DNA of 35,699 nt. It comes from Paracoccaceae bacterium (GTDB lineage Bacteria > Pseudomonadota > Alphaproteobacteria > Rhodobacterales > Rhodobacteraceae). Location of the stretch: the NCBI GenBank assembly GCA_902525995.1, contig CABZJG010000002.1:1-35699 (forward strand). Reading direction: 5' to 3'. Below, piece by piece: positions 3,227 to 25,786 of the stretch. A program made the translations under genes and the position numbers. Under the pieces are notes generated by a model. That model did not search any database, was not told where the DNA came from, and worked only from the letters and a program-made list of their open reading frames with translations. Numbering within the stretch: position 1 is the stretch's first letter; the number at the start of each line of letters is the position of its first letter.

Positions 3227-3952
3227 ATGATAGGAATTAAGGAACCAATTTGGCGGCTTGGTCCCGCAAAATACATGGCTGTGTACTTGGTTTTGCTTAC
3301 TACCCCGACCCTTGCCCAAGAAATCCGCTGTCCCGATTGGGAATATCTTGTCGCAAAATACGAAGGCCGCGCGGCACTTCGCTCGGTTGCACCCTCTGCT
3401 AACTTTGACGAGCTGATCGGCAGACCTGCCGCGCAACCGGCCTCTGCTACAGTGCCAAAGACGCCCTTGGCAGCCACCAAGCAACCCCTGAGCACCCAAG
3501 CCACCCAATGCACATATAGCGTAAAGAAGGGAGATACGCTCTCCTCTATTGCGCTCAAAAACCTTGGCAGTCAAAATCGCTGGCGGCAGATATTAAGTCT
3601 CAACACATCAACACTTCCGAATGAAAACTCTCTGCGTGTTGGCCAGAGCATCAGGCTTCCGTGCGAGGGTCAACCTCTAAGCGCCACTGCCGCGCCCAAA
3701 GCTGCGCCAATCCCAGTGTGGACCGCCAAAAAGGGCGAACGTCTGACGGATATTTTAAAGCGCTGGTCTGCCCGTGCCGGCTACCAGCTCATCATAGAAA
3801 CCAAAGATGACTGGATTATTGCAAGCCCTGTGTCCATCGAAGGTGCGTTTCGCCCGGCAGTTAAAGAGCTGATCAAGGGGTTGGCCACATCAGGCTCTAA
3901 TCCGCCTGTAAGGATATTTTCAAACAACACTTTGAAGTTAGGTAATTCATGA
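3227..3952 (+). CDS. pilL: PilL-like protein: signal peptide, LysM domain, TcpQ/PilL-like C-terminal domain
   Basis: LysM motif YSVKKGDTLSSIALKNLGSQNRWRQILSLN...LRVGQSIRLP; C-terminal VWTAKKGERLTDILKRWSARAGYQLI...GAFRPAVKELIKGL fits the TcpQ C-terminal pattern; followed by the secretin gene. Confidence 0.7.
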   Translation: MIGIKEPIWRLGPAKYMAVYLVLLTTPTLAQEIRCPDWEYLVAKYEGRAALRSVAPSANFDELIGRPAAQPASATVPKTPLAATKQPLSTQATQCTYSVKKGDTLSSIALKNLGSQNRWRQILSLNTSTLPNENSLRVGQSIRLPCEGQPLSATAAPKAAPIPVWTAKKGERLTDILKRWSARAGYQLIIETKDDWIIASPVSIEGAFRPAVKELIKGLATSGSNPPVRIFSNNTLKLGNS

Positions 3953-5415
3953 ATAGATTGGCCTACATTTTTCCCCTTGGTTTCAGCGTGGTTTTGTGCG
4001 GCTGCGCGGCCACAAATGTTGCGGAGCGCGAAATCACCGCAGGTAAAAAACTCACAGCTGCTGCGCGCGCAGAGATGGCCGCCATTCAGCGCGGCGAAGT
4101 CATTGAGGTGAACAAGCCATATTACGGCCATCAGGTGAAGGTGGAGCGCGGCTCGCAGCGCGGCAAGCCTTTGCCAAAAAGCGTTGAGGGGGCCAACAGC
4201 ACCAGCTTCAATTTCACGGGCGATATTCACAAGTTTGCTGCAAACGTAAAAGACCAAACTGGTATACCTGTGTCCATTGCCGCACGCTTCACCGACCTTG
4301 ATGGCAACGTCATTTCCATGCCCATTTCCACATTGCTTTCGTTGAACTCAAAAGGCGCTCTGTCGAAGGCATTGGACATTGTGGGATCGAGAACCGATAC
4401 GGATTGGTCCTTTGATGGATCTACAATTGTGTTCACCCGCATGACGAATAGATCCTACGCACTTTCGATCCCCACGGGCAAAGTATCGTTTTCAAAAGCC
4501 TCATCCGGGCTAAGCGGCAGTGGGTCATCGCCCATATCGATCACCCGCTCTGGAGAGCTTGATGCATGGAGTTCATTGACAACGCGGCTTGCCAATGTGG
4601 TCACGCCGCCCTCTCAAGCAATGCTGGACCAACAATCTGCCACATTAACAGTCTTTGGCCCGCCTTCCGTTCACGCCAAGGTAAAGGCGACCATCGATGA
4701 GATGAACGCGCTTTATGCGCAAAAAATAGGGATTGAGGTGGCTGCATTTTTTGTGGAAACATCCAAAGTCGATGATTTTGCAGCTTCTATCTCTGCACTT
4801 TCAGGCACAAATTCTTTCACCGGCCTAGCGCAAGCGATCTCGGGAAATGGTGTGGCAACCATCGCAGGCGGCGGCAACAGTTTCAATTTCCGCGCAATAT
4901 CACGCGATGCGTCTGTTTTTGATTTTGTCCAAGGCTCAAGCACATCGCAAAGCGGCGTATGGGCCCCTATTAAAATAGAAACCACCACCAATTATGTGGC
5001 AAACGCGGTGACGACAACGCAGGACGGTGTGAGCAGCACCAGTTTGCAAACCGCCTCTGTCGGAGAAGGGCTTTCCATTCATGCGCTTCCGCGCATTCTG
5101 GATGGCAACAAAATCCAACTGCATCTGACAGTGGTGCAACGCACTCTCACTGATCTGGATGAATTCACCACAAGCACCTCCAGTGTTCAACTGCCCAAAA
5201 TAGATGCCCGAGAAATTCAATCAGATGTCATTCTGGCCTCAGGCGAAACATTACTGCTCGCAGGTTACGAGCAGGACAAATATAAAAAATCCTCCTCTGG
5301 ACCCGGATCACCACTGGCATGGATTGCCGGGGGTAGCAAAGACGCCGAAGCTAAGAACATCCGTATGATTTTAATGGTCCGCCCCTCCATCCTTGCCACA
5401 AGTGGAAGGCCATAA
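3949..5415 (+). CDS. pilN: Type IVb pilus secretin, lipoprotein (PilN-like)
   Basis: Lipobox-like VVLCGCAA near the N-terminus; C-terminal secretin features (LSIHALPRILDGNKIQLHLTVVQRTL...VQLPKIDAREIQSDVILASGETLLLAGYEQ); overlaps pilL by ATGA. Confidence 0.87.
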   Translation: MNRLAYIFPLGFSVVLCGCAATNVAEREITAGKKLTAAARAEMAAIQRGEVIEVNKPYYGHQVKVERGSQRGKPLPKSVEGANSTSFNFTGDIHKFAANVKDQTGIPVSIAARFTDLDGNVISMPISTLLSLNSKGALSKALDIVGSRTDTDWSFDGSTIVFTRMTNRSYALSIPTGKVSFSKASSGLSGSGSSPISITRSGELDAWSSLTTRLANVVTPPSQAMLDQQSATLTVFGPPSVHAKVKATIDEMNALYAQKIGIEVAAFFVETSKVDDFAASISALSGTNSFTGLAQAISGNGVATIAGGGNSFNFRAISRDASVFDFVQGSSTSQSGVWAPIKIETTTNYVANAVTTTQDGVSSTSLQTASVGEGLSIHALPRILDGNKIQLHLTVVQRTLTDLDEFTTSTSSVQLPKIDAREIQSDVILASGETLLLAGYEQDKYKKSSSGPGSPLAWIAGGSKDAEAKNIRMILMVRPSILATSGRP

Positions 5416-9608: not shown

Positions 9609-10973
9609 ATGAAAACTTTATCCATTACGCTTTTAGCTGCGCTGTGTCTAAATAATCCGCTGAGCGCAAGGGAACAGCTCTATGGCGTGGATATACTGGC
9701 GCTAGCCAATCAGAACCCAGCCACTGTTTTTGAGCAGCCGGACGGCTTTCATCTGTCTCTTAGGCCCTCCGAGAATATTGCCGTTTTTACAGGGCCAGAG
9801 GACGGCCCGGAATGGTATGCCAATACACGCATTGATGAAGCAGGGGTTATTGAAATTTTCAATGACACAATTGCTCTGACAATTGTTCTTAATAAAGAAA
9901 CACTCTTTGCAGTTTCTCCAAAGTCAATCAAAGCCTTCGCAGCTGATCGGCTGGCACGGATCATAGGCCAGCCGCTGACAATAGGCGCTTTATCGCAGCA
10001 AGCGACGTTTTTACCTAGCCATATAGTCAAATTTAACAATGGTGATTTAGCGCAGTGGTATATTTCACGCGACGGCACAGAACTCCTCATCTCAATGGAA
10101 CAGAATGAAGGACCCTTGCGGGTAAATCTACTGGACTTGCTGAAGGATTGCGGCGCGCCCTGCGCAAAGCCTGTGCCAGCGACCACTCTGCTGCAATCGG
10201 CACCTACACCACAGGCAGGATATACACCACCCGCGCTCAGCACAGCCAACACATTGGAAATCTGGCCCAAATGCCCGGCCGAAACTCTGCGCGCGGCCTT
10301 TACCTCGGCGCTGAGCGGTAAGGTGGGCGTGGATATTTATTTGATTGAAGTTGAGGTGCTCAAGGCCTGCGCCCGCACACGGGAGTTATTGAATGAACTG
10401 GTTTCAGCAGAGGGCGCATTGGCCCGATCCTACGGCGAAATGCGCAGCACATTGCTCGAAATTGAAAACAGGGAGCGCGCCGCTGCAATGGCTCAAAAAA
10501 TGGCGGCGCTCGATGCGCAGGCGGCAGCTCTCGCGGCAACAGAGCAGCAAAAAGCGCCCCCGTCCAATCAGGCAGAAGACATGCAAGGGTCTGCGCAAGA
10601 CAAAGAAAATGATCAAAAAGCCGAAGAAGCCTCAGAGCCCTTGAACGAATGCCCTACGCCGCGGCCACTGGAGTTGATTGAATGGACTGCCGTGGTGCAG
10701 AGCCGTGATGGTGTCTGGCGCATTGATCTGCGCGTGAAAGAAAGGCCCAGCTTGGTGCGCGAGGTTGTCTTTGGCGAAGATTTCCTAGGGGCGCAGGTGA
10801 TTGCCGTTGAGCATCCGCCCGGTCGGGTAACGGGTCAGGATTGCGCCGGTGTCGCAACCATTGCGCGCGAAGCCGTAGATATTCACGTCCCCCTGACGTA
10901 CGGGACGAAAATACCGGTTGAAACCGATCCTGAAACCGGCGCCAAAATTTTCCGAGGGTATGGCTATGACTGA
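9609..10973 (+). CDS. Secreted/periplasmic hypothetical protein of the pilus operon, coiled-coil middle
   Basis: Signal peptide MKTLSITLLAALCLNNPLSA; Ala/Gln/Glu-rich middle; sits immediately before pilQ. ATG at 9609 preferred over 9567. Confidence 0.7.
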   Translation: MKTLSITLLAALCLNNPLSAREQLYGVDILALANQNPATVFEQPDGFHLSLRPSENIAVFTGPEDGPEWYANTRIDEAGVIEIFNDTIALTIVLNKETLFAVSPKSIKAFAADRLARIIGQPLTIGALSQQATFLPSHIVKFNNGDLAQWYISRDGTELLISMEQNEGPLRVNLLDLLKDCGAPCAKPVPATTLLQSAPTPQAGYTPPALSTANTLEIWPKCPAETLRAAFTSALSGKVGVDIYLIEVEVLKACARTRELLNELVSAEGALARSYGEMRSTLLEIENRERAAAMAQKMAALDAQAAALAATEQQKAPPSNQAEDMQGSAQDKENDQKAEEASEPLNECPTPRPLELIEWTAVVQSRDGVWRIDLRVKERPSLVREVVFGEDFLGAQVIAVEHPPGRVTGQDCAGVATIAREAVDIHVPLTYGTKIPVETDPETGAKIFRGYGYD

Positions 10974-12600
10974 GAGGCAAACAGCATTGTCTCAGGCATG
11001 GACATGGCTCACGGAGGATCGCAGTTCCAAAAGCGCCCGCCATACGGCCTCTGTGCTGGAAAACGGCATTCTTGAAGTTGGCACACCCGAATTTCGCGCC
11101 TGCTGTGCCTATCACACGGATGGCTATGCTTTGGTCAGCGCCGCGCAGTTTTACGATGAAGATGTTCAGATAGAGGTAGAAAATCTTGTAAAGCGCGGCG
11201 TTTTACCACCCGACATGCACATGCGTGCGGCCGGCCTCAAAGAGATCGAGGATGCCTATAACGCGCGCCCGGTCGATGTCAGAGAGGATACAGCGCAGAT
11301 CACGCAAAACAAGATTTATGCAATCCTTGCAGAAGCGGCCGCACTCCGCGCTTCCGATGTGAAGCTCATTGTGCGCGGCCATTCAACGGAGTTGCGCATC
11401 CATGCGGGCGGTGAAGAGCATAGTGTCGATTGTCCACTGGCCTCAGTGGGTGAGGGCAATGGGGCGATCAACTTCCTGTTTGAAATTCGCGATGCCCGCT
11501 CGGGGCAGGTGGGCGATCAAGATCAGGAGTTTCAGAGTTTTGCGATAACTTCTAGTGACCGGTTTCGTCTTCCGCCCGGCCTATCGAAACTGCGCTGCGC
11601 CAAAGGGTATCACGGGATATCAGGCGGGGGAACAGCCCGCCATCTGGCAATGCGGCTTTTTTATGAAAACGGCAACGACGAAACAGCAACAATCCATGAC
11701 TTGGGCCTGGACGATGAGGTTCTCAAAGCGCTTGAGTATATGCGCTTCCGTGATGCCGGTGCGCTGATTATCGGCGGCTCAACCGGGCAGGGCAAAAACA
11801 CAACTTTGGTGCGCGCGCTTGAGAAACTGCACAAAGAGCGGATGGGCAATTTATCGATTGTGTCGGTGGAATCGCCCATTGAGATCGGGATTGATTTGCC
11901 CGGTGTTATCCAGATCCCCGTGCCAAGCGTAAAAGAGGGCGAGGCGCGCAACGAGGCTTACGTGTCTGCACTGCGGCACTTCAAGCGCATCCATCCAGAT
12001 GTGGGGCTGGTGTCAGAAATTACCGACAAAGAGGGCGCGGAGCAGACCGTTGAATTCGTGTCCTCAGGCCATGTGTGTTACACAACGGTTCACGCAAACT
12101 CGTGCATTGAAGTGCCCTTCGAGCTGATTTCCAAAGGGATAAATCCTGCGAGCATTGCGCGCCCGAATTTTCTGGCCGTTGCCATGGCACAAATTCTGAT
12201 CAAAAAACTATGTGAACACTGCGCTTTGCCCGCGATGCAAGCAGAGCTTTCCGCCCGTTTGCGTGATGCGCAAAACATTCAGTTTTCAGGTGTGCGGCGG
12301 CGCAATCCGGCCGGGTGTGAGCACTGCCGTTCTAAAACCAAAAATGTGCATATTTGGAGCGGGTATTCGAGAGTGATCGCCGTGGCAGAGGCGGTCATTC
12401 CGGACGATAAAATGCGCGCGGCTTTTGCGGCCAATGACCCAACCGGTGCCTATGAGCATTGGCGGCGAGAAAAAGGCGAAGGTGGGCTTGGCGGGGTGCG
12501 CATTGCCGATAAATTGGTGGATCTGGTGAATAAGGGCCGCGTTGATCCAGAGGATGCGATGAACCGGGGCATGATTGATGCTTTGGAGGCGCGCTCATGA
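10966..12600 (+). CDS. pilQ: PilQ-like type II/IV secretion ATPase (GspE/PilB superfamily)
   Basis: GALIIGGSTGQGKNTTLVRAL; HFKRIHPDVGLVSEITDKEGAEQTVEFVSSGHVCYTTVHANS; tetracysteine LCEHC...GCEHC. Confidence 0.88.
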   Translation: MTERQTALSQAWTWLTEDRSSKSARHTASVLENGILEVGTPEFRACCAYHTDGYALVSAAQFYDEDVQIEVENLVKRGVLPPDMHMRAAGLKEIEDAYNARPVDVREDTAQITQNKIYAILAEAAALRASDVKLIVRGHSTELRIHAGGEEHSVDCPLASVGEGNGAINFLFEIRDARSGQVGDQDQEFQSFAITSSDRFRLPPGLSKLRCAKGYHGISGGGTARHLAMRLFYENGNDETATIHDLGLDDEVLKALEYMRFRDAGALIIGGSTGQGKNTTLVRALEKLHKERMGNLSIVSVESPIEIGIDLPGVIQIPVPSVKEGEARNEAYVSALRHFKRIHPDVGLVSEITDKEGAEQTVEFVSSGHVCYTTVHANSCIEVPFELISKGINPASIARPNFLAVAMAQILIKKLCEHCALPAMQAELSARLRDAQNIQFSGVRRRNPAGCEHCRSKTKNVHIWSGYSRVIAVAEAVIPDDKMRAAFAANDPTGAYEHWRREKGEGGLGGVRIADKLVDLVNKGRVDPEDAMNRGMIDALEARS

Positions 12601-13631
12601 ACGCCTCTATGCGTCTCAACAAAGTGTTTTGGAGCAACACGGCGCGCGCGGAGTTTTACCGCCTGATGGCGGGCCTTTTGAAGATGGACACAGATATTCC
12701 CGAAGCCCTCAGGGTTGTGCGTGAAGCCTGCGCGGCGCGCGGCGCAAAAAGCACATTGCGCGTGATTGATGATCTGCAAGAGGCAAGGTTGCGGGGCGCA
12801 TTGCAACAAACATTGGTATTTTACGCCAGCGGCGGGGAGCGGTTATTATTTTCCGGCATTGGCGCTCAGGATCCTGCACCGCTCTTTCTCGGTGCGGCAG
12901 AGATTTTAGAAGGGCGCACCAAGATGAGCCGCGCGATCAAAAGCGCACTTGTGATGCCAACGCTTTTGTTGGGATTGATTGGCGTTTTGGGTGTGATGCT
13001 TCACTTGCAAGTGATCCCAGCGTTTGCGCAGATTATGGATCCGGGTGATTTTCCACCCACCGCGCGCATACTGGCCTCCTCTCTTGAATGGATGGCCGAT
13101 TGGGGCAGTTTTATTGGTGTAGGTGCTGTAGCGGCTGTTTTGATTATTCTTGGTAGTCTGCCGCTTTATGCAGAAGCGGGCCGCTCTCTACTCGATAAGG
13201 TCTTTCCCTGGAACCTTTACAAGTTGAATCTTGCCATTGGTTTTTATCTGGCAATCGCCGCTCTTATCAAATCAGGGCGCGATTTTACGCTCCGTGAACT
13301 CAGCACCGTTGCGGGTTCAATGCCGCGCTATGGCCAGCGCAATATTGCCGCAATTATTGACCAATCCGCAGAACTTAAGCTCGAAGATCGTATTCTGGCG
13401 GCGGGTAAAGCCTGGCCGGATCAGGAGTTAAACGCGGTCTTTCGAGCCTTTAATTCAAAATCCGGCGGCGCACCGCTGTTTTCAGAGTATCTGGACAGCT
13501 GGATACAATCGGCTGAGGCACGCATTAAGGCGCGCGCGGCGACGCTCAACACAGTTCTGCTGATTGCGATCAGTGCGCTGATCATGGTGGGCATGTTTGC
13601 CATGTTTCAGTTTTTTCAAACCATATCTTAG
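12597..13631 (+). CDS. pilR: PilR-like inner-membrane platform protein (GspF family)
   Basis: GspF-like duplicated domains with TM segments (MPTLLLGLIGVLGVMLHLQVIPAFAQIM; C-terminal TM LLIAISALIMVGMFAMFQFFQ); downstream of pilQ. Confidence 0.85.
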   Translation: MNASMRLNKVFWSNTARAEFYRLMAGLLKMDTDIPEALRVVREACAARGAKSTLRVIDDLQEARLRGALQQTLVFYASGGERLLFSGIGAQDPAPLFLGAAEILEGRTKMSRAIKSALVMPTLLLGLIGVLGVMLHLQVIPAFAQIMDPGDFPPTARILASSLEWMADWGSFIGVGAVAAVLIILGSLPLYAEAGRSLLDKVFPWNLYKLNLAIGFYLAIAALIKSGRDFTLRELSTVAGSMPRYGQRNIAAIIDQSAELKLEDRILAAGKAWPDQELNAVFRAFNSKSGGAPLFSEYLDSWIQSAEARIKARAATLNTVLLIAISALIMVGMFAMFQFFQTIS

Positions 13632-13640
13632 GAGGTAAAA

Positions 13641-14144
13641 ATGTCAATTTTGCAAGTTATACTTGGCCTGATCATATCGGTCGGAATCATAGTGGGAATA
13701 TTGGAGCTGTTCGAGCGTGCTCAGAACACGAATAAAAACTTCCAGCTCACTTCGCAGGTCATACAGATCACCACAACAGTTGATCGTGTATGGCAATTTC
13801 GCGGCGATTATCCCAAAGCATCAATGACCGAAACGGTGATCAATCGTGGGGAATTCTCCGGACAGTCTGTGCAAGGAACAGCGCCAAACCGGACGATTAT
13901 ATCTCCTTATAACACAGCTGTCACAGTCACAGGGGCAGGGGGCCGGGACTATAGCATCAGCTATGCCGATCTGCCGGCCAATGCCTGTTCGGCTTTTTTG
14001 GAGCGCTACATCGGTGAGACGCGGGAGATTGACGGCGCATCGGTTGAAGGCACTGCGCTGACAATTCCGTTGACAGGCGCGCAAATTGACACAAGATGCA
14101 CGGGCCAGGCTGATAATAAATATACAGTGGCAGTAACATACTGA
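13641..14144 (+). CDS. pilS: PilS/TcpA-type IVb major pilin, apparently leaderless
   Basis: MSILQVILGLIISVGIIVGILELFERAQNTNKN hydrophobic pilin helix; YADLPANACSAFLERYIG...DTRCTGQADNKYTV Cys pair as in PilS/TcpA; strong SD aggagg. Confidence 0.78.
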   Translation: MSILQVILGLIISVGIIVGILELFERAQNTNKNFQLTSQVIQITTTVDRVWQFRGDYPKASMTETVINRGEFSGQSVQGTAPNRTIISPYNTAVTVTGAGGRDYSISYADLPANACSAFLERYIGETREIDGASVEGTALTIPLTGAQIDTRCTGQADNKYTVAVTY

Positions 14145-15361
14145 TGGTCCACTTGGCCCTCATAAGGTCTGGCGCCAGAGGTGCGTGGCGCAAATACCCT
14201 CGCACAGGGCGGCGCGGCTCTGCGGTGCTATCCATTACTCTTGGCTGGATTATTGTAATGGCCGTGGCGGCGCAGGTGCTTGATGAACTGCATAAAACAC
14301 GTAAAAAAGAATGGTTCTCTGGCGTGGCACTGGAAATCGCGGTTTTGATGGATCGCTATGATCAGGCGGTGCATCATGTCAGAAACACACCCGGCCATGC
14401 TGCATTTGCAGATTTGGCGAGCCTTGATGGCGTCAAAGTTTTCCCCGCAGGTCTCATTACAACCCAGATGCAAATGAGCACGGATCCAGCGCGGTGGTTT
14501 GGGAAAGATAGCGTGACATGGCAGACAGGGCGCGCCGGGCAGACCATCACGCTGACGTTTCACACGGCCCATTTGAGCAAATACGGCGCTGCGACAGGCG
14601 TGGGCCTGATGGATACAAGTGGGCTTTCAGCCGCAGAGGAAAACTGGTTTTTAGAGCAACTCACCCTTGGGTGGGATGGAAGTATTGAAGATATTCACCG
14701 CGCCTCGGACGAATACAAAACTCTATCAGGCGTATTGAGCGATCAGCAGTGGGCCGTATATGGCCATTGGTTTTCCGGACTTAACGAAGATTTCCTGTTT
14801 CGCGAGCAGCGCCCGCGCGAAACGCCGAATGTTATGCAAGTGCGCCTGGACATGGGAAATCATTCATTATCTGGCATCAACGATATCATCCCGTCAGGGC
14901 AATCAGGCGGCACGCATCGTTTTGCCTCGAGCGCTGCGGCCTCAGCTGTTGTTTCAGGGCCGATCACGGCAAAGAATATGTCGCTTACAGGCAGCGCAGA
15001 AGTCACCGAGCTCTCCAGTGCAGGAGAAGATAACTTAGATATTTCAGCGACAGGGTCCCTGAGAGCCCCTCAAATCAGTGTAAGTGGCACACTCAGCGCA
15101 ACAACACTGACACAAACAACAGGTGATCGTGCCACTTTAGATGTCGTGACAGGGCGCGCCCCCCAAGATGGACAAAGCCGGGCTTCAAGCGGCGATGTGA
15201 CAGGAAACATGAGCGCCGGATCCCTGCAGGCAGATGGCAGGACCCTCAAGATCTCTAACCAAATGAGCATACCTGCGGGCGGTCTCATGAGCGCTATTGA
15301 TATCGACGCACGCTCTTTGCGCATCAACCAATTGACAACATCGGGGTGCACAGGATGCTGA
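14144..15361 (+). CDS. pilV: PilV-like minor pilin (first copy), shufflon-type shaft, C-terminal CTGC
   Basis: Prepilin site RTGRRG^SAVLSITLGWIIVMAVAAQVLDEL; downstream Gly/Ser/Thr beta-repeat shaft; ends TTSGCTGC*. Confidence 0.7.
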   Translation: MVHLALIRSGARGAWRKYPRTGRRGSAVLSITLGWIIVMAVAAQVLDELHKTRKKEWFSGVALEIAVLMDRYDQAVHHVRNTPGHAAFADLASLDGVKVFPAGLITTQMQMSTDPARWFGKDSVTWQTGRAGQTITLTFHTAHLSKYGAATGVGLMDTSGLSAAEENWFLEQLTLGWDGSIEDIHRASDEYKTLSGVLSDQQWAVYGHWFSGLNEDFLFREQRPRETPNVMQVRLDMGNHSLSGINDIIPSGQSGGTHRFASSAAASAVVSGPITAKNMSLTGSAEVTELSSAGEDNLDISATGSLRAPQISVSGTLSATTLTQTTGDRATLDVVTGRAPQDGQSRASSGDVTGNMSAGSLQADGRTLKISNQMSIPAGGLMSAIDIDARSLRINQLTTSGCTGC

Positions 15362-16524
15362 AACGGTTGATCAATATGCGCAAATTACTCCTGCTTGCAC
15401 CGTGTGGGAAAAACACGTCGCACAGGCCGCACATAGCGCATATGCCGCACATATCGCATATGCCGCGCCTGCGGCGCAGAGGTATGGGGCTTCTGGATGC
15501 CATTTTAGGCCTGATTTTATTTGTCGCGATGGTCAGCATGGCGGCCCAAATATGGGCAGCGCAGTTGGAAAAAATTGCGCGTGATGTAGAAGCGCGGAAC
15601 CTGTGGGAAGTAAAGACAGCACTTAAAGCCTATGTTGAGGCCGACATTCCGGCGCGGCATACCGCAGCGGTCGTAGCCGGCGGCGCGCTGGAAATTACGC
15701 CCGCCATGCTGAACGGGGCAAATATCACCCTGCGCAGTGGTGCACTTTATGGTCTTGAGCGCCGCCCTATTGATATGTGGGTAATCCAGGATGGATCCGA
15801 TCTGATTTATTTTGCCCGAGCCTCTGGCCCCATTAAATCTGCCCATTACCCTGCCGCCAATGTCATTTATGGGCCCATGGGATCAGTCTCTGGAGAGCAA
15901 CCGGGTAAAGTGCAGGGCCCCGCTCTGGACTGGGATGTGGCCAGCTTGCAGAACGCACACGGATTGCCTCTTTTGAACGATGTTCTGGCCGTCGATTTCG
16001 TCAGCCTAGAGGCAGATTACCTCCCCTATCTCAGCCGAACAGGCGCCGTGACCCGGGACGGCGTGAACCTTTCTTCCATGGCAAGCAATCTCGATCTGGG
16101 GGGCCAAAATCTGGTCAATGTAAATGACGTCACCGCATCCGGCGCACTCACAGCAGATACGTTAGATGTGAACACACTCACAATCACCGGAACCATGAGC
16201 GGCGCCAATCTACAGATCAGCGATACTGCCAGCGTTGCCGGCACGCTCACAGCAGGTCAAGTAACCTCTCTTGAGACAATCACCGCCGGGAGCGCCTCTA
16301 TCAACGGGCCGCTTGACGCTTCAAGCTTGAGTATTTCGGGCAGCGCGACTTACGGCAATCTCACGGTCACTGGCAAGATAGACGTTGGCGGTGATGTGAG
16401 CGCGGTATCTGCCAGAGTAGAGAACATTGAGGCCAATTCCATTTTGGCCACGGGCGCGTCTGGCGTGGCGTTGAATACAGGCACATTTGATCAAATCATA
16501 ACCGGGAGCTGCTCAGGATGTTAA
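15355..16524 (+). CDS. PilV-like minor pilin (second copy), shufflon-type shaft, C-terminal CSGC
   Basis: Prepilin site RLRRRG^MGLLDAILGLILFVAMVSMAAQIW; shaft DLGGQNLVNVNDVTASGALTADTLDVNTLTITGTMSG resembles the shufflon constant region; ends ITGSCSGC*. Confidence 0.72.
   Translation: MLKRLINMRKLLLLAPCGKNTSHRPHIAHMPHISHMPRLRRRGMGLLDAILGLILFVAMVSMAAQIWAAQLEKIARDVEARNLWEVKTALKAYVEADIPARHTAAVVAGGALEITPAMLNGANITLRSGALYGLERRPIDMWVIQDGSDLIYFARASGPIKSAHYPAANVIYGPMGSVSGEQPGKVQGPALDWDVASLQNAHGLPLLNDVLAVDFVSLEADYLPYLSRTGAVTRDGVNLSSMASNLDLGGQNLVNVNDVTASGALTADTLDVNTLTITGTMSGANLQISDTASVAGTLTAGQVTSLETITAGSASINGPLDASSLSISGSATYGNLTVTGKIDVGGDVSAVSARVENIEANSILATGASGVALNTGTFDQIITGSCSGC
15427..15462 (+). repeat. 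Two near-identical 18-bp tandem units in the leader of the second minor pilin
   Basis: ccgcacatagcgcatatg | ccgcacatatcgcatatg, encoding HIAHMP HISHMP. Confidence 0.8.
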
Positions 16525-16865
16525 AGAAAGCGGCTGCATATCTCAGTGCGGTTTTGGCAGCTGCGGCGGCTCAGGCACAAGAGGGCGCGAATGTACCGTC
16601 CCTCAAGGATGTGGGTGCAGCGCAGCTGCGCGCAGAGCTCTTGCAGGATTTGGAAGACCTCAATGAAATCGCCCGCCGGATGCAGGCTTTAAAAGCCTAT
16701 CAAGCGGCTCTTGGACAAAGGCTTGCCGGCGCAAAAGATGGCTCCGTTCACGATGTGTTCTTTCCCAAGGATCTGTGCAGTGGGCAGATGGAAAACATCT
16801 GTGCCTTTTTGCCCATCACAACAGGCAAGATTGCGATCAGCAGTGCAAGGAGGCAGGGCAAATGA
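16518..16865 (+). CDS. Small secreted protein, possibly PilP-like
   Basis: Signal peptide ending AAAAQAQ; short helical segment VGAAQLRAELLQDLEDLNEIARRMQALKAYQAALGQRL; embedded in the pil operon. Confidence 0.5.
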   Translation: MLKKAAAYLSAVLAAAAAQAQEGANVPSLKDVGAAQLRAELLQDLEDLNEIARRMQALKAYQAALGQRLAGAKDGSVHDVFFPKDLCSGQMENICAFLPITTGKIAISSARRQGK

Positions 16866-17461
16866 CAGAGTTTGCACTCGAAATTCACTTAGGCATTGCT
16901 CTCATTGCTCTGCTGTATCTGGCGCTGTGTGACGGGATATATTTTGAAATCAGTCCCCAATGGGCGATCATTGCATATGCGCATATGACGGCTGTTCAAA
17001 TGAACTTGGGGGTACCCGCTTTGGATCTGGCTGTGGGTGCCGCGTTTTTTGCAGCAATCACAACAGCCTATTATTTTCTGCTGAAATTAATGGGCAGGCA
17101 ACTTGGCCTTGGGGACCTCTATTTGCTGCCTCTCTTTGGCCTCCTCTTTCCCCGCTTTGAATACATCTGGGCAGGATTGATTTTGCTCACGGCACTCTTG
17201 ATGTTTCATAAGTTTGTTCTGTCAAAGCGGCGCGGAAAACCATTCTGGAAAGGACATATGCCTGTGGCACCTGCGTTTTGCACGGCGCTTGGGATCGTTC
17301 TCATGGTGCAATATTCTCAGGCCACAAGCTCACAGGTAGCGCACGCGTTTCAATCCCCGTTTCTATCACAGTTTCAGGTTTTAATCTTGAGCTTTGCCGC
17401 AAGCGCAGCCGCCCTTGCATGGTTTATTCACGAACACATATCTTGGAGAAACACTCGATGA
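16862..17461 (+). CDS. pilU: Prepilin peptidase, A24 family, PilU-like (no N-terminal methylase domain)
   Basis: First Asp in LALCDGIYFEISPQWAI and second in GRQLGLGDLYLLPLFGLL (GxGD); multi-TM; ATGA overlap with the upstream gene. Confidence 0.78.
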   Translation: MTEFALEIHLGIALIALLYLALCDGIYFEISPQWAIIAYAHMTAVQMNLGVPALDLAVGAAFFAAITTAYYFLLKLMGRQLGLGDLYLLPLFGLLFPRFEYIWAGLILLTALLMFHKFVLSKRRGKPFWKGHMPVAPAFCTALGIVLMVQYSQATSSQVAHAFQSPFLSQFQVLILSFAASAAALAWFIHEHISWRNTR

Positions 17462-18175: not shown

Positions 18176-18244
18176 CGTTATCCTTTTTAGTTGCAGCCCA
18201 AAAATAACGCACTGCCGCCTTCAAAACAAGAGGGCAATTGCGCC

Positions 18245-19144
18245 ATGACGGGTCTGCACAGCCAATTAAAAAAGCATAGCGGCGCACTTTTCGAGCTTCT
18301 GTTTGAAAGCGATGTGATCGAAATTCAGCTGGTTGAAACGGGTGATGTTTTTGTGGATCGCTTTGGCCGCGCCCCCTGCGCATCAGGGCGTTTGGATCGT
18401 CAAGAAGCAACCCGATTTTTGCGCTTTTGCGCATCGCACTCAACAACGGAATTCAACCAGGTTCTTTGCCCAATTATCTCAGGGCAGGTGCCGGGCACGC
18501 CGCACCGCATCGAAGGCCTTTTGCCCAAAACGGTCAAAGCTCCTATTTTTTCCATTCGCCGGCACCGCGAAGGCTCTTATGATCTATCGGAGTTTTCAAA
18601 CAGCCGCGAGATTGTGAAAACGATTGAAGCGGCCATACTTCAAAAATCCAATATTGTGATTGTTGGCGGCACCGGAAGCGGAAAAACGTCTTTGTGCAAT
18701 GCAGCGCTTGCGTTTTTAGCGCGCCAAAAACCCCAAACCCGCGTGATCGCAATCGAGGACACTCCGGAGCTTCAGCTTGAATTTGAGCGCGGCTCAAGCC
18801 TTTTGTCTACCGATCATGTGAGTTTGGACCGCTTGCTGGTGTCGTCCTTACGCCTTGCGCCAGATCGTATTGTGGTTGGAGAAATTAGAACGGGTCAGGT
18901 TTTAATGACCGCGCTGAAATCTTGGAACACGGGCCATCCGGGCGGGCTCACCACGCTCCATGCCAATAGCGCCGAGGACGCCTTTGCGCGTATGAAAGCG
19001 CTTGGTCTGGAAGTGGGCGGACTTGATTTAACACCGCTGATCACTGCGGCCGCCCTTGTCATCATTTACGTCGAAAGGGGCTCAGGAGCGCCTCAAATAA
19101 AGGACATTAAAACTTTAAAAGAAGGAGACGAACGACATGACTAA
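18245..19144 (+). CDS. trbB: TrbB/VirB11-family conjugation ATPase
   Basis: NIVIVGGTGSGKTSLCNAALAF; RVIAIEDTPELQ; LAPDRIVVGEIRTGQVLMTALKSWNTGHPGGLTTLHANSAEDA. Confidence 0.9.
   Translation: MTGLHSQLKKHSGALFELLFESDVIEIQLVETGDVFVDRFGRAPCASGRLDRQEATRFLRFCASHSTTEFNQVLCPIISGQVPGTPHRIEGLLPKTVKAPIFSIRRHREGSYDLSEFSNSREIVKTIEAAILQKSNIVIVGGTGSGKTSLCNAALAFLARQKPQTRVIAIEDTPELQLEFERGSSLLSTDHVSLDRLLVSSLRLAPDRIVVGEIRTGQVLMTALKSWNTGHPGGLTTLHANSAEDAFARMKALGLEVGGLDLTPLITAAALVIIYVERGSGAPQIKDIKTLKEGDERHD
19084..19143 (+). repeat. Imperfect direct repeat, copy A (3' end of trbB)
   Basis: aggagcgcctcaaataaaggacattaaaactttaaaagaaggagacgaacgacatgacta; matches copy B with about 6 mismatches and one 3-nt gap. Confidence 0.88.
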
Positions 19145-19577
19145 AGACATGTTCTTTGGGACACTTACAATAGTATATATAGTGGCGTTTGTAGCGTTGG
19201 GCTTAAACGATTTGCTGGCTTATCTGGATAATTCGGAGAAATTTCGCCCAACGTTTTTTAAGGCGGATTTTGGTATCGCGATTGCGTTAGGCCTAGGTTT
19301 TTTGGTGCGCTACATGGGAGCCAAAAAAAATCCATCAGCCCATGAGGATATAAAGACATTTTGGCCAATTTGTCTTGGGTTTTGTATTCTCTTTTTGGTG
19401 TTGAGAGTAACCGCTTATCTCATATCGGTTGATTTATTACCAGACACTTTGAAGATTTGGTTCCTATATTCTGTCTCATTCATTCTCTTGGGCCTGGCAA
19501 TTTTAGGGAGCATTTATGCGTTTGAATTAGCCGAAAGGGCGCAGAAGCGCCTCAAAACAAAGACAGCAAAACTTTAA
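19137..19577 (+). CDS. Hypothetical 4-TM membrane protein bracketed by the direct repeats
   Basis: Four hydrophobic segments; starts inside repeat A and ends inside repeat B. Confidence 0.7.
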   Translation: MTKDMFFGTLTIVYIVAFVALGLNDLLAYLDNSEKFRPTFFKADFGIAIALGLGFLVRYMGAKKNPSAHEDIKTFWPICLGFCILFLVLRVTAYLISVDLLPDTLKIWFLYSVSFILLGLAILGSIYAFELAERAQKRLKTKTAKL

Positions 19578-19599
19578 AAGAAGGAGAACGACATGACTA
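19543..19599 (+). repeat. Imperfect direct repeat, copy B (vestigial duplicate of the trbB 3' end before trbC)
   Basis: agaagcgcctcaaaacaaagacagcaaaactttaaaagaaggagaacgacatgacta; the trbB-equivalent frame still reads EAPQNKDSKTLKEGERHD*. Confidence 0.88.
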
Positions 19600-19931
19600 G
19601 ACAAATATTTTATGTGCTACTTGCGGCAAGCATACTCGCCCTGCCGCAAACGGCATTTGCGTCTATGAGTCAAGCAGATGCACTGCTGGGCGATACAAAC
19701 CCGTTTGAGGTTGTGTTTAAATTCATAACAGGGCCGTTGGCGATTTTCATCGCAGTTGCGGCCGTTGTGGTCTTTGGTGCGCAAATCATCTCCGGCAATG
19801 AAATGGGCGGCGTCATGCGCCGTTTGCCGCAGCTCCTCATCGGTGTGGCCTTTATTCTTGGCGCGGTGCGGCTAATCACGGTTTTGACGGGATCAACGGG
19901 CATGATTTTAACCACAATCGGCCCTTTTTAA
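19593..19931 (+). CDS. trbC: TrbC/VirB2-type conjugative pilin
   Basis: Signal peptide then two TMs: FKFITGPLAIFIAVAAVVVFGAQIISGNEMGGVMRRLPQLLIGVAFILGAVRLI. Confidence 0.88.
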   Translation: MTRQIFYVLLAASILALPQTAFASMSQADALLGDTNPFEVVFKFITGPLAIFIAVAAVVVFGAQIISGNEMGGVMRRLPQLLIGVAFILGAVRLITVLTGSTGMILTTIGPF

Positions 19932-19950
19932 CGTGGTAGGAGGTGCGCCT

Positions 19951-21036
19951 TTGAGACAGCTTTTTCAAACCATAATGGTATGTTTTGTTTTGGGCAAGCC
20001 CGTCTGGGCGCAAGACCTTGGCTCTGATTTGCCGTCAAACCCCAAAGATGTCATCCCAAGCGTTGCTGCCGAACCGAACGCAGGCAGCAGCACACAAGAC
20101 GGTGATCCTATTGAGCCGGCAGAGAGCGCCTCACTTGATAAGATCATCGAACATATCGCACGTGAGGTCACAGAGCAGATAAAATCCGATCTTGCGGCTT
20201 TAAATGCTTTAAATGCTTTAAATAAAGAGGCTGCTATAGAGGCAAAAGACCCCTCCCAAATCGACCTGACGATCAAAGCCGCCCGGCAAGTTTTGGACGA
20301 AACCTCACCTGTTTATCTCGGCAAGGCCGGGCGCATTGTTCAAACTTTTGGCCAGTCCATTCCGCGCCTCGTTTGCCGCGTAGGCCAGCACTGCATTATG
20401 GAGCTCGAGCCGGGAGAAATTGTCGCTGATACACCTGTGTTTTCGGACACAGCGCGGTGGGATGTCTCTTTGCGCATGCGCGATACAGGCCAAGAACAAA
20501 TATATGTATCCGTAAAGCCGCAGGCGGATGCGGCAGAAACAACACTGACGTTGATCACGGACAGGCGCGTCTATTCCGTTTTGCTGGTTCCCGATCTTTA
20601 TGCCCACACAATGATTATGAGCTTTAAGTACCCCGATAGTGAGCGCCGAGCGCTTGAAGCCCAAATTGAGGCGCAAAAAGCGGCTATTTCAGCGCAGGAA
20701 GAGGCCGAAAATACAACTAAGGCGCGCGCGCTGGAAGAAAGGGGCGTGCAGACGGCGCAGGGGCCGGTTCCTGCTGAAGAGCTTGATTTTAAGTACCGTG
20801 TGGTCTCGGGCAAGGCCGCGTTCAAACCCGTGCGCATTTATACCGACGGGATTAAAACCTATATCGAGTTGCCGGGAAAATATCGCGGTGAATATCCTGT
20901 TGTGGTGGTCAGCAACCCCGCAAATCGAAAATCAATCAACCTTGTTTACAAATTCCCTCTCATCATCGTCGACCGTAAGTTGGGAGATTTTCAACTCAAA
21001 ACGCCGGCGCGCAGTTTAAAAATCAAAAAAGGGTAA
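19951..21036 (+). CDS. trbG: TrbG/VirB9-family outer-membrane complex protein
   Basis: ARQVLDETSPVYLGKAGRIVQTFGQSIPRLVCRVGQHCIMELEPGEIV...TRWDVSLR-like block; C-terminal FKYRVVSGKAAFKPVRIYTDGIKTYIELP. TTG at 19951 behind AGGAGGTG preferred over GTG at 19933. Confidence 0.85.
   Translation: MRQLFQTIMVCFVLGKPVWAQDLGSDLPSNPKDVIPSVAAEPNAGSSTQDGDPIEPAESASLDKIIEHIAREVTEQIKSDLAALNALNALNKEAAIEAKDPSQIDLTIKAARQVLDETSPVYLGKAGRIVQTFGQSIPRLVCRVGQHCIMELEPGEIVADTPVFSDTARWDVSLRMRDTGQEQIYVSVKPQADAAETTLTLITDRRVYSVLLVPDLYAHTMIMSFKYPDSERRALEAQIEAQKAAISAQEEAENTTKARALEERGVQTAQGPVPAEELDFKYRVVSGKAAFKPVRIYTDGIKTYIELPGKYRGEYPVVVVSNPANRKSINLVYKFPLIIVDRKLGDFQLKTPARSLKIKKG
20197..20223 (+). repeat. Three perfect copies of a 9-bp tandem repeat (gctttaaat)
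   Basis: In-frame within trbG; encodes ALNALNALN. Confidence 0.9.
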
Positions 21037-21040
21037 GCAG

Positions 21041-21484
21041 ATGCTTGGAAAAATCTCGACTTTGCTATGTGCACTGATGCTTGCTGGATGCGCTGGTTTG
21101 AGTGAATTTTCAGGGTTTGATAATAGCGCTGCGCGTATCACACCCGCGCAAGAATGTGCCGTCGGCTATGATCTTTCCAAACAGATTTTCAAGCACATTA
21201 ATATCAAAGACACTGTCTTGAAGTCGCCCGATAGCAAAACCTCGCACTGCGAATTTTATATGACCAAATACCTGCGCGCCGCAGGCTACCGGATTGACGA
21301 CACACAAGACAGCAAACCTATGAAGGTCGTGATTGCGCGCGACGGGCCATCCATCACCGCTTTTGCAAATATCACCACTGGCCTGCGCATTACGCGCTCT
21401 TATTCACTAACGCCCGCCGGCGTTCTTCCGCTCGGACCGCCTACAATTGCCGCCCTGCCTACCCCGCAAGGGGATCTGCCATGA
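21041..21484 (+). CDS. trbH: TrbH-like lipoprotein
   Basis: Lipobox LMLAGCAG; position between trbG and trbE; LRAAGYRIDDTQ. Confidence 0.7.
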   Translation: MLGKISTLLCALMLAGCAGLSEFSGFDNSAARITPAQECAVGYDLSKQIFKHINIKDTVLKSPDSKTSHCEFYMTKYLRAAGYRIDDTQDSKPMKVVIARDGPSITAFANITTGLRITRSYSLTPAGVLPLGPPTIAALPTPQGDLP

Positions 21485-23859
21485 CAAAATTTAAAAACGT
21501 CGCTGATTATCTCAATTATAGCCATATGGCCGCCCCCGGCGTTGTTGTGGGCAAGGATAAAAGCTTAATGGCGGCCTGGGCGCTGAAAGGTTTTGATTGT
21601 GAAAGCATGTCTGGCGAGGAAATCGATGCGCGTTTGGACAGGCTTGCCGTGGGACTTTCGCGCATGAGCGACGGCGATGGAATTTGGATCTCTCTTGAGC
21701 GGCGTAAAGTAAAGAGGGTTTTATGCGAGCAGAGCGCCAATGCGCAACTTGGGGCGATCCTGCGCGCTGAAAATGCTGCACTCTCAGAGAGGGAAGAGGC
21801 CTATGAGAACCACCTATCGCTGGCGCTGCAATCGCATTTTACATCTCATGAGAAACGCAGCGCGGTGCTTGAAGAGTTTGAAAGCCGCCGGCAAACAATT
21901 GAAAATATTTTCAGCGCAGCCTTTGAAATGCGCCGCCTTGGGGAAATGAACACAGAAGGATCGCTTGTTAGCGACGAGTTTGTGAGTTTGCTGTGTAGTA
22001 TGGCCACAGGACGGCCCATGCCGCATTTTACAAACGCAGAGCGTCCGCTTATCGAGCTCAGCCCACATATAGCGCGCTCTTTTGCCCAAGACAATTTCAC
22101 AGCTTTACCGATCATTGATGGTGTGGGCGTTGCGATTGCAACGCTCTGGGGCTTTCCACGCAGCGAGTTGGATACGCGATTTTTACGCGATTTGGAATCG
22201 CTGCCCTTGGCCTATCGCTGGACATCCCGTTTCATAAAAATGGACAGCCAGGCGACAAAGAAAAAGGTCACGCAAATTGGGCGCCGCTGGAAACAATCAG
22301 GCACCAATATGGCGCATCAGGTGATGACGGGCGAGCAAAGTCCCATGGAAGCCTCCTCTCAAGTTGCGATCAATGAGCTTGAACTTATCAACATGGCCAT
22401 GGTGCGCGAGGGCGCGGTTTTCGGGCGTTTTACATCTGTTTTAACGGCCGCTTATGACAAAGAAGGGCTTGCGGGCGACAGCAATGAGGCTCGTGTAACC
22501 GAAGTGTGGCGCGTCTTTGAACAAGCCGCAATGGAATGTGAGCTTGATATTCGGCTGGAATGCGAAAAAGCGTTTGATGCCTTTTTAGGATCGCTGCCTG
22601 GCCATCTCAATGACAGCTGCCGCCCTCTGATCTTATCTGCAAATGCGGCTTTTGCACTGATGCCGCTGCAAACCACATGGCCAGGCGAAAAAAACGCACC
22701 ATGCCCCCCGCCCTTTTTCCCCAGCGATGCCCCACCCCTTTTAGAAGGAATGAGCATTACCGGTGAGCCGTTTTCCTTCAACATTCATTGGAAAGATGTT
22801 GGCCATACGTTAATTTTAGGCCCAAGTACGGCGGGTAAATCTGTTCTTTTAAGTGCCATTGCAGCGCATTTTCTTCGCTATGACGACGCGCAGGTCTTTT
22901 TCTTCGACAAATTACGCTCCTCTTTCTATACTGCACTGGCGTTTGGCGGACAGGTCTTTGAGTTTGGGGCCGATCATTCAACGGGCGTCGCGCCGCTACA
23001 GCAGGTCGCCGAACTGGGAGAAGAATGGACGACCGCATGGCTGTGCGAAATGTTGCGCCTTCATAATATCCCCGTCACAGCTCAAATAGAAGCAGACATT
23101 GCAGCGTGCCTCAAAGGCGCAGGTCATGACGACTTTGGGTTCGAAGATCTGGTCAGTTATGCGCTCCCTTCGGACGCTAAGGCGGTGTTTGAAAAATTTG
23201 TGGCCCATCCGATGCTGGACAACGCTGCCGCGCAAATTGGACAGAGCCCTTTTACAGTTTTTGAAAGCCATGAGCTGTTCAAGCTTGATGAAAAGCTGGC
23301 AGTTCTATTGCTCGATTACCTGTTTCAGCATGTGGAAAAACAGCTCGAAAGCGGGCGTCCAACCATCATTGTCATTGATGAAGCCCATGCGTTTCTGCGC
23401 CATACCATTTTTGAAGATCGCATACGAACCTGGCTGAAAGAGGGCCGCAAACAAAACGCCTCTTTAATACTGGCGACGCAAGAACTCACCGATGTGGCCG
23501 AGAGCAAGATTGCGCCCACTATTCAAGAGAACATCCGCACGAAAATATATTTGCCAAATGATGCTGCGCGATCCGTGGAAACGGCCGATAAATATCGCCG
23601 TATTGGACTGTCTGAAGCGCAAATCGCCATTATCAAAACGATGACGTCTAAGAAACATTATCTGGTCACGAAACCGGCCGATGGAATGGGGCGCGACACC
23701 AACTCTCACGGGCGCGTTGTCGATTTTGGGTTTTCACAAACGGCGCTGGCGCTCTTTGGCCAAACATCTGCGCAAGACAGCCTAAGGGCAGAGCAAATAC
23801 ATAAGAAAAACCCTCAATTTTGGTTGGATGATTTAACCCAAAAAGGAGCCGCCCCATGA
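21481..23859 (+). CDS. trbE: TrbE/VirB4-family conjugation ATPase
   Basis: HTLILGPSTAGKSVLLSAIAAHFLRY; PTIIVIDEAHAFLRH; LKEGRKQNASLILATQELTDVAESKIAPTIQENIRTKIYLPN. Confidence 0.92.
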   Translation: MTKFKNVADYLNYSHMAAPGVVVGKDKSLMAAWALKGFDCESMSGEEIDARLDRLAVGLSRMSDGDGIWISLERRKVKRVLCEQSANAQLGAILRAENAALSEREEAYENHLSLALQSHFTSHEKRSAVLEEFESRRQTIENIFSAAFEMRRLGEMNTEGSLVSDEFVSLLCSMATGRPMPHFTNAERPLIELSPHIARSFAQDNFTALPIIDGVGVAIATLWGFPRSELDTRFLRDLESLPLAYRWTSRFIKMDSQATKKKVTQIGRRWKQSGTNMAHQVMTGEQSPMEASSQVAINELELINMAMVREGAVFGRFTSVLTAAYDKEGLAGDSNEARVTEVWRVFEQAAMECELDIRLECEKAFDAFLGSLPGHLNDSCRPLILSANAAFALMPLQTTWPGEKNAPCPPPFFPSDAPPLLEGMSITGEPFSFNIHWKDVGHTLILGPSTAGKSVLLSAIAAHFLRYDDAQVFFFDKLRSSFYTALAFGGQVFEFGADHSTGVAPLQQVAELGEEWTTAWLCEMLRLHNIPVTAQIEADIAACLKGAGHDDFGFEDLVSYALPSDAKAVFEKFVAHPMLDNAAAQIGQSPFTVFESHELFKLDEKLAVLLLDYLFQHVEKQLESGRPTIIVIDEAHAFLRHTIFEDRIRTWLKEGRKQNASLILATQELTDVAESKIAPTIQENIRTKIYLPNDAARSVETADKYRRIGLSEAQIAIIKTMTSKKHYLVTKPADGMGRDTNSHGRVVDFGFSQTALALFGQTSAQDSLRAEQIHKKNPQFWLDDLTQKGAAP

Positions 23860-24674
23860 AACGAATGCAACACTTAATCTGTGCGTTTTATCTGACGACC
23901 GGGCTTTCAAGCCCGTCCCACGCGGGGCCCGCAACGGGTGCGGCCACAGAATGGACGCAGCTTGCAAACCTTGGGGAATTGGGCGCCCTGGTCTCAACAG
24001 AAACGCAATCGCTTAACACCTTGGCCGAAATGCTTGGCGCGGAATTCGAGCAAATCAGAACATTGAATGAAACCTATCAAACAATGCTGCAAAACACGGC
24101 CCGCGTTGACGAAAGTTTCAAGCGAGATGCGGCCCGTTCTATTTTGGATATGGCCGCAGTGCTACGGCAATCCAGCGCGCTTGTGGCAAAGGGTAAAAAT
24201 CTGGATCAATTTCTGCGCTCGGGAAACATCACTGATCCTCTTTACGATGATGCGCCGCTGGAGCGTGCCCAAATCAGTGAACGATATGACAGATGGGCAG
24301 GCCAATGGAATAGCTCTCTTAGCTCTTCTTTGAGCAAAGCAGGTCTGACGATCAAAGATGTCGAGCAGGAGGCCGATTTGCTTTCGGCCATTCAAAGCAG
24401 GGTAGGCAATGAGGACGGGCAGCTGAAGGCCTTGCAGATTTCCAATGAGCTCAGCAGCTCGCTCGCCACCCAGATGATGGATCTCAGAAGCCTCACAGCA
24501 TTGCAGGTCGAGCAGAACGGCGTGGCATGGGGCCGTGTTTTGTCCGAGCAGGACGAAGCCGAGGCCAAAGCCCGCGCTTTTGAAATTCAAAGGAATCAAG
24601 AGCTCAAACGTCTGGAGCAAGAGATGAAGAATGCGCGCGGCATCAACGAAATCTTGGGCATTGGAGGAAAGTGA
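23856..24674 (+). CDS. trbJ: TrbJ/VirB5-family protein
   Basis: Signal peptide; ATEWTQLANLGELGALVSTETQSLNTLAEMLGAEFEQIRTLNETYQTML coiled-coil layout; follows trbE. Confidence 0.82.
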   Translation: MKRMQHLICAFYLTTGLSSPSHAGPATGAATEWTQLANLGELGALVSTETQSLNTLAEMLGAEFEQIRTLNETYQTMLQNTARVDESFKRDAARSILDMAAVLRQSSALVAKGKNLDQFLRSGNITDPLYDDAPLERAQISERYDRWAGQWNSSLSSSLSKAGLTIKDVEQEADLLSAIQSRVGNEDGQLKALQISNELSSSLATQMMDLRSLTALQVEQNGVAWGRVLSEQDEAEAKARAFEIQRNQELKRLEQEMKNARGINEILGIGGK

Positions 24675-25771
24675 TGCGGGTTTTTTGGTTTGTTGTTTTA
24701 GTAATCCTCATGGCTAATCCCACCGCTGCCCAAGAGGTTGCGCCGGCCTCTGGAGGCGATGAGATTGTCGAAAACTTAAAGCAGGCCATAGATGGTATGG
24801 GCGGGCGCATAGCGCCTTACGCCATTTGGTTCCTAACCAGCCTGTTTGTTATCGATATTATCATTACGTTCGGCCGCGCCACGCTTCAAGGCACGGGTTT
24901 GGGGGAGACCTTGAACCGGTTTATTATACGTTTGCTGATTATTACGCTGGCTATATTTTTCATCAACAGTGTCTCGCAATTTGTCGAGATGTTCATCAAT
25001 GCCGCCATACGGCTCGGCTCCGAAGCCTCCGATCAAAAGGAAATATCAGATATAGCCGTATCGACAATTGTGAACGAAGCGTTGGCTTTTGCCCGTGACG
25101 TCATGGGCCTTATGGACTGGAAGCAGATCGGTACAGCTATCATCTTGGGAATTGTTATAATCATCGGCTTAATTATTGGGGCCGTGATCGCTGCGCTCGT
25201 TATTCTGGCCTATGCGGAGATGTATTTTGTCGCCTTCATGGGCGTTTTTGTTCTGGGCTTTGCGGGCCTGTCCAGCACAACGGGCGCTGCGATCACCTAC
25301 GTTAAAACTCTGATCGGGCAGGCTTTGAAACTGATGGCGCTGCTTGTGACCTATGCGTTCATGAGCCAATTGACGACCGGGCTTGCCGGGCCGGACGGGG
25401 TAACTTTTGATCAGGCTCTTTCAATGCTGATGGTGCAGGTCATTACGCTGGTGCTTGTGGCCACACTTCCCGGATCACTGCAACAGCTGGCCGGCGGGCT
25501 TGGTTCATCAGGATCCTTTGAAATGACCGCCCGCATGGGCGCCAAAACCGGGCTGACAGCGAGCGCGGCAGCAGCTGGTGCAGCAGGCGCAGCATCATTA
25601 GGTGGAATAGGGGGGGGTCTGCTGGGCGGTGGGAAGGGCCTATTGGATGCCCTTCAGGCTGGCGGCGGTGCCGATCAGGCTCTCAAAGGTCTTGGCAAAG
25701 GTCTTGGCAAAGGCGTAGCGCCCGGTGTGAGAACCGGTCTTAAATACCTCAATAAAGCAAGAGGCAAGTAA
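24671..25771 (+). CDS. trbL: TrbL/VirB6-family polytopic membrane protein
   Basis: Signal peptide, multiple TM segments, Gly/Ala-rich C-terminus; follows trbJ. Confidence 0.85.
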   Translation: MMRVFWFVVLVILMANPTAAQEVAPASGGDEIVENLKQAIDGMGGRIAPYAIWFLTSLFVIDIIITFGRATLQGTGLGETLNRFIIRLLIITLAIFFINSVSQFVEMFINAAIRLGSEASDQKEISDIAVSTIVNEALAFARDVMGLMDWKQIGTAIILGIVIIIGLIIGAVIAALVILAYAEMYFVAFMGVFVLGFAGLSSTTGAAITYVKTLIGQALKLMALLVTYAFMSQLTTGLAGPDGVTFDQALSMLMVQVITLVLVATLPGSLQQLAGGLGSSGSFEMTARMGAKTGLTASAAAAGAAGAASLGGIGGGLLGGGKGLLDALQAGGGADQALKGLGKGLGKGVAPGVRTGLKYLNKARGK

Positions 25772-25786
25772 CGGGATGGATCTCTT

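Follow-up and report, generated by a model that had tools for sequence, protein, structure and literature searches.

We found that the type IVb pilin gene pilS in the window, by which we mean the whole stretch of 35,699 bases that was analysed, encodes no leader, and that this leaderless gene is real; it is no assembly artefact and has counterparts elsewhere. Subunits of type IV pili are described as having a short leader, which they then lose. Very likely, PilS serves an R64-like plasmid type IVb pilus as its major pilin and is made in mature form from the start: the initiator methionine would replace the residue normally exposed by the prepilin peptidase, the N-terminal hydrophobic helix would act as an uncleaved signal-anchor (N-in, with the globular domain in the periplasm), and the ordinary PilQ and PilR would polymerise the protein without leader removal. 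Topology, N-terminal chemistry, polymerisation and mating function are what we infer from sequence.

The window also carries RepC, and an adjoining conjugative T4SS would be the context for a mating pilus. The relevant features are listed below; a slash marks the cleavage site or, in leaderless proteins, the start.

3227..3952, + strand: LysM and TcpQ-domain protein of the pil operon
3949..5415, + strand: secretin, PilN family
10918..12600, + strand: pilQ, assembly ATPase of the GspE/PilB family (PF00437, 2.1e-37); start uncertain, ATG 10960 or 10966 likely
12597..13631, + strand: pilR, inner-membrane platform protein of the T2SSF family (PF00482, 1.9e-8)
13629..13631, + strand: TAG that ends pilR; it shares the pilS frame, which it closes three codons 5′ of the ATG
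13630..13635, + strand: Shine-Dalgarno sequence AGGAGG of pilS, overlapping the end of pilR
13641..14144, + strand: pilS, leaderless, probable major type IVb pilin of 167 aa, beginning MSILQVILGLIISVGIIVGILELFERAQ (from sequence and profile alignment)
14144..15361, + strand: minor pilin 1, PilV-like, 405 aa, leader ...TGRRG/SAVLSITLGW, cleavage after codon 14216-14218
15346..16524, + strand: minor pilin 2, PilV-like, 392 aa, leader ...RLRRRG/MGLLDAILGL, cleavage after codon 15481-15483
16862..17461, + strand: pilU, A24 prepilin peptidase with catalytic Asp24 (16931-16933) and Asp85 in GLGD (17114-17116) kept
18191..28977, + strand: conjugative T4SS with VirB11, VirB2, VirB9, VirB4, VirB6, two VirB8 and VirB10

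Positions 13629-13655 read TAG GAG GTA AAA ATG TCA ATT TTG CAA, with atatct just 5′. Because the gap between pilR and pilS is only 9 nt, there is no room for a PilS leader, and the other two frames of the pilR end contain no Lys/Arg-rich stretch ending in Gly. The in-frame TAG, the short gap and the lack of an alternative-frame leader together mean that the window pilS can encode no leader. In profile alignments with relatives, Met1 coincides with residue 1 of the mature pilins and Gln5 stands at the Glu5 position. An earlier note on this DNA had described the strong Shine-Dalgarno sequence, the frame closed by TAG at 13629 with no hidden leader, the initiator Met at mature residue 1 with Q for E5, and an operon that holds an A24 peptidase and two minor pilins with RRG leaders; all of this was confirmed. 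The in-frame pilR stop could also suggest readthrough into a single PilR-PilS protein, with PilR giving the N-terminal part. We regard this as barely credible, because in two relatives (G781 and G474; G numbers are our handles for genomes) pilR stops in a different frame from that of pilS, and pilS has a strong Shine-Dalgarno sequence of its own in the window, G436, G778 and G779 contig 514.

The window PilS belongs to the PilS-family type IVb pilins by its match to profiles, by its paired C-terminal cysteines and by its N-terminal hydrophobic alpha1. Its match to PF08805 (PilS) lies just below the cut-off of 22 bits (21.7 bits, E 2e-4), and the PilS family profile recovered BfpA (9e-17), S. 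Typhi PilS (2e-10), TcpA (8e-8) and CofA from the PDB. These solved type IVb pilins, which fall into the same family by profile, are processed prepilins with Glu5. Measured against the strict definition of a type IV pilin by a class III signal peptide, the window PilS lacks both the cleavable, hydrophilic, Gly-ending leader and Glu5. Cys116 and Cys153 are invariant in the family, in leadered and leaderless members alike. AlphaFold without an alignment gave a mean pLDDT of 43.7, with alpha1 alone confident; this helix spans residues 3-33 and is confident to about residue 30.

The locus is of the R64-like type IVb kind, with PilN secretin, PilO, PilQ, PilR, PilS, PilV and A24 peptidase in one operon, where PilO is assigned by position and size only. 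PilS alone lacks a leader in the window, and PilU would be retained because the two minor pilins are still leadered. The A24 peptidase reached neither PF01478 nor any NCBIfam model, but it scored 41 bits against a profile built on the A24 proteins of related pil loci, where its two catalytic Asp aligned as well. The alternative assembly route suggested in the earlier note finds no support, since the locus keeps an ordinary secretin, PilO, PilQ, PilR, leadered minor pilins and A24. Further observations concern the T4SS region (all + strand). In the VirB10/TrbI protein (27100-28977), the TrbI domain is joined to a GmrSD_C/HNH nuclease domain at the C-terminus (PF07510, E 3e-11, residues 491-599), a fusion that is unusual for a T4SS, and the two VirB8 paralogues are consecutive (25787-26443 and 26436-27107). 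The neighbouring proteins at 28965-30335 and 30197-31051 have a common muramidase-like stretch (QMTVxEVxxWQ...AAGxYQ), followed in the former by transmembrane helices; this protein has no Pfam match.

Genome contigs were scanned for exact peptides of PilS or PilQ without any close relative being found, and tblastn against plasmids with the PilS of the window, G436 or G779 contig 514 gave no match. Distant loci were gathered with PilR and PilS profiles from genomes of the same class, and finished plasmids were reached by searching plasmids with the proteins of G474, first those of Azospirillum and Cupriavidus and from there those of Acidovorax, Burkholderia and Paraburkholderia. Nearly all of the 104 PilS-like frames have Gly at -1 and Glu5, and a minority are leaderless. 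Beyond the window, at least nine genomes or plasmids of the R64-like type IVb family have a leaderless PilS; six of them are finished isolate plasmids. The window and many of the relatives are MAG contigs, and pairwise PilS identity is only 15-25%.

G436: leaderless, TGA upstream, KERS/MNPIGVLLSV
G781: leaderless, TAG directly 5′ of ATG, MTPQGVMISV
G778/G779: leaderless, TAG upstream, GEGA/MGIVAAILG
G779 contig 514: leaderless, /MGIIGVVLG
G163/G296: leaderless, MLERLLDVAV
G394/G474: leaderless, MRDLIxxGLALF
Azospirillum argentinense p5: leaderless, PilS MKDLLAF (WP_114861686.1), PilV MKDLFAF
Cupriavidus metallidurans: leaderless, PilS MSEILGALF (WP_104670410.1), PilV MSEVLGLLF
Acidovorax, Burkholderia contaminans (two) and Paraburkholderia: further finished leaderless plasmids

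Five of the six finished plasmids have no in-frame start codon between the upstream stop and the annotated PilS Met; the Paraburkholderia gene has one, 21 codons upstream, which would overlap pilR. Leadered sisters also exist, G029 (RRRRG/ISIFGVILG) for G779 contig 514 and G780 (RWRG/FSLFGVLLG) for G436, and the PilS of Azonexus and Nitratidesulfovibrio are leadered; no PilS was identified in Bosea. The homologues in the collected loci do not all carry a leader and E5. The leaderless state is uncommon, because a phylum-wide sample of 399 genomes gave 10 with a match, in which a leader was present on all PilS whose N-terminus could be read.

The window is contig 2 of a MAG that is 60.6% complete in 267 contigs, and a sequencing or assembly error, or decay of the gene, might have hidden a real leader behind a frameshift. 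The same architecture in the six finished plasmids of isolates and in several further MAGs rules out MAG error for the family, and the pilS reading frame is full-length with both invariant cysteines and the short gap to pilR; no frameshift that restores a leader was found. Pairs of related leaderless pilS genes gave dN/dS values of 0.06-0.41, and by this measure of the sequences the leaderless genes are under purifying selection, which argues against decay. We consider an artefact or decay exceedingly improbable.

PilS might also be a minor, tip or chaperone-like subunit, with a leadered major pilin encoded elsewhere. The incomplete window genome would allow this, tip pseudopilins are generally known to lack Glu5, and G163 and G296 hold a second, leadered PilS besides the leaderless one. 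Against it, pilS occupies the usual position behind pilR, it is the sole PilS found in each of the near-complete G436, G781, G394 and G474, and RefSeq annotates the homologues from isolates as 'type 4 pilus major pilin'; no second PilS was detected in the window genome (60% complete) or in G436 and G781. On this evidence we judge such a role unlikely.

Other leaderless subunits were also seen among the relatives. The two PilS-like pilins of G163 (L043:8036-9240) and G296 (L008, L063) are a leaderless one (MLERLLDV) and a leadered one (TRRG/ALGTMD); side by side in G163, they form a natural pair in which to look for a division of labour. The second minor pilin of G778 (L074, reverse strand, 10187-11164) is leaderless, with a stop two codons ahead of its beginning, AMGLFGALLALPV; with its leadered first minor pilin and intact A24, this locus is an apparent intermediate. 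Small proteins after PilS at L162:9508-9987, L161:17678-18142, L078:12118-12567 and L071:20061-20660, annotated as PilM or hypothetical, combine a hydrophobic helix at the N-terminus with the lack of a leader; they may be additional pilin-like subunits that have no cleavage site.

In a tree of PilQ and PilR, for which the pilin was not used, the best tree shows six changes of leader state, of which well-supported branches force four or more; a smaller set gave five and four changes, respectively. A single leaderless clade was rejected on this tree (AU p 1e-54; 1e-119 within the clade of the window), and a PilS tree built without the first five residues agreed (p 3e-6; 0.005 within the clade of the window). 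The leader state must accordingly have switched at least four separate times. The tree is neutral as to direction; loss seems more probable than the regain of a leader that is rich in Arg and has the Gly. The finished leaderless plasmids have an acidic residue 3 (M-x-[DE]), whereas the window PilS has no acid there; a single origin of all types with an acid at position 3 was not rejected (AU p 0.12), and they may share one.

The N-terminus of PilS matches the mature PilV N-terminus of its own locus across nine loci (permutation p 5e-5), with a same-locus score for PilS residues 2-12 of 258 versus 43 on shuffling. Where PilV is leadered (the window, G436 and G781), the match peaks sharply with Met1 on the first residue past the cleavage Gly, at a register of exactly 0, as in G781 (PilS MTPQGVMISV, PilV RWRG/MSPQGAQIGV); in the window, it is minor pilin 2 whose mature N-terminus matches PilS in register. 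Because PilS and PilV helices pack together in pili and the register is matched, the start Met occupies the place at which the peptidase would cut. Together with the repeated switches, finished genomes and purifying selection, this register strongly supports the proposal of the earlier note that the pilin bypasses leader cleavage.

Without a positively charged leader, PilS might instead insert N-out, leaving the globular domain in the cytoplasm with a non-pilus function. Its N-flank has no Lys/Arg and its C-flank has two, at a net charge of 0; across PilS and its relatives the N-flank holds 0 to 1 Lys/Arg and the C-flank ranges from -2 to +2 net. The charges would therefore specify an N-in topology weakly; the remark of the earlier note that the topology would be unusual by the positive-inside rule holds in part, as the signal is weak and not inverted. 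The cysteine pair, invariant across leadered and leaderless members, suits an oxidising compartment and thus a periplasmic location, and PilS co-varies in register with a processed PilV, both of which make N-out insertion very unlikely. An uncleaved N-in anchor is the reading that we retain.

By the comparison of homologues, Q5, which the earlier note pointed out, is not conserved in its own right. Residue 5 is Q, G, A, D or I in leaderless relatives, and some leadered ones also lack E5; in the clade of the window these are G029 and G780, so loss of Glu5 may precede loss of the leader, with too few independent pairs for a formal test of linkage. Glu5 mutants of several pilins, including R64 PilS, form no homopolymers (PMC4471445), and a pilin without leader and Glu5 would therefore need compensating packing. 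The two losses may be linked, in that a filament without the contact between Glu5 and the free N-terminal amine needs no peptidase-made N-terminus, in whose place the start Met, perhaps still formylated, could stand.

An A24 gene with both Asp is present in the pil loci of G436, G781, G778, G780, G163, G029 and G697. In G474, both PilS and a PilV-like protein are leaderless; its pil locus has no A24 gene, and the A24 genes of this genome belong to Tad loci and to loci for type II secretion. No A24 match over the cut-off came from the six finished leaderless plasmids (two weak partial matches, 11-12 bits), whereas the R64-like, Acetobacter and Bosea plasmids have such matches. Absence of A24 alone is not diagnostic, because the leadered Nitratidesulfovibrio plasmid also has no match. 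As far as their sequences tell, the loci look like a series from all pilins leadered, through PilS leaderless (the window) and PilS plus one minor pilin leaderless, to all leaderless with no peptidase. We lean towards a class of type IV pili without any prepilin processing, in which all pilins would be translated mature and no peptidase is present, with the window plasmid as an intermediate that has released the major pilin alone from processing.

The closest known counterpart is the R64 thin pilus (IncI), which has the same order of secretin, PilO, PilQ, PilR, PilS and PilV, a TcpQ-domain protein, A24 and a neighbouring conjugation T4SS. R64 PilS likewise has a PilS domain with paired Cys, but R64-like PilS is a leadered prepilin with E5 (HDKG/WGILEQ). 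The Azospirillum p5, Cupriavidus, Acidovorax, Burkholderia and Paraburkholderia PilS resemble that of the window in being leaderless and in having their start Met on, or close to, the N-terminus of the mature protein. They differ in that PilV is leaderless wherever it could be read (Azospirillum, Cupriavidus, Acidovorax, Burkholderia) and A24 is absent, whereas the window keeps leadered minor pilins and A24. In the literature searched, which left most subscription journals outside, we found no description of leaderless type IV pilins.

PilS2 of the PAPI-1 ICE is a plasmid- or ICE-borne major pilin of a type IVb mating pilus, as the window PilS would be. It carries a leader of 14 residues and depends on the PilD of its host, which restricts the range of donors (PMC8565334). 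With a leaderless major pilin, this dependence would fall away. Genome scanners keyed to the prepilin cleavage motif will miss leaderless pilins. Such pilins make the roles of the leader and of Glu5 testable, and the at least four leaderless switches, in some plasmids with loss of the peptidase, suggest that prepilin processing may be dispensable.
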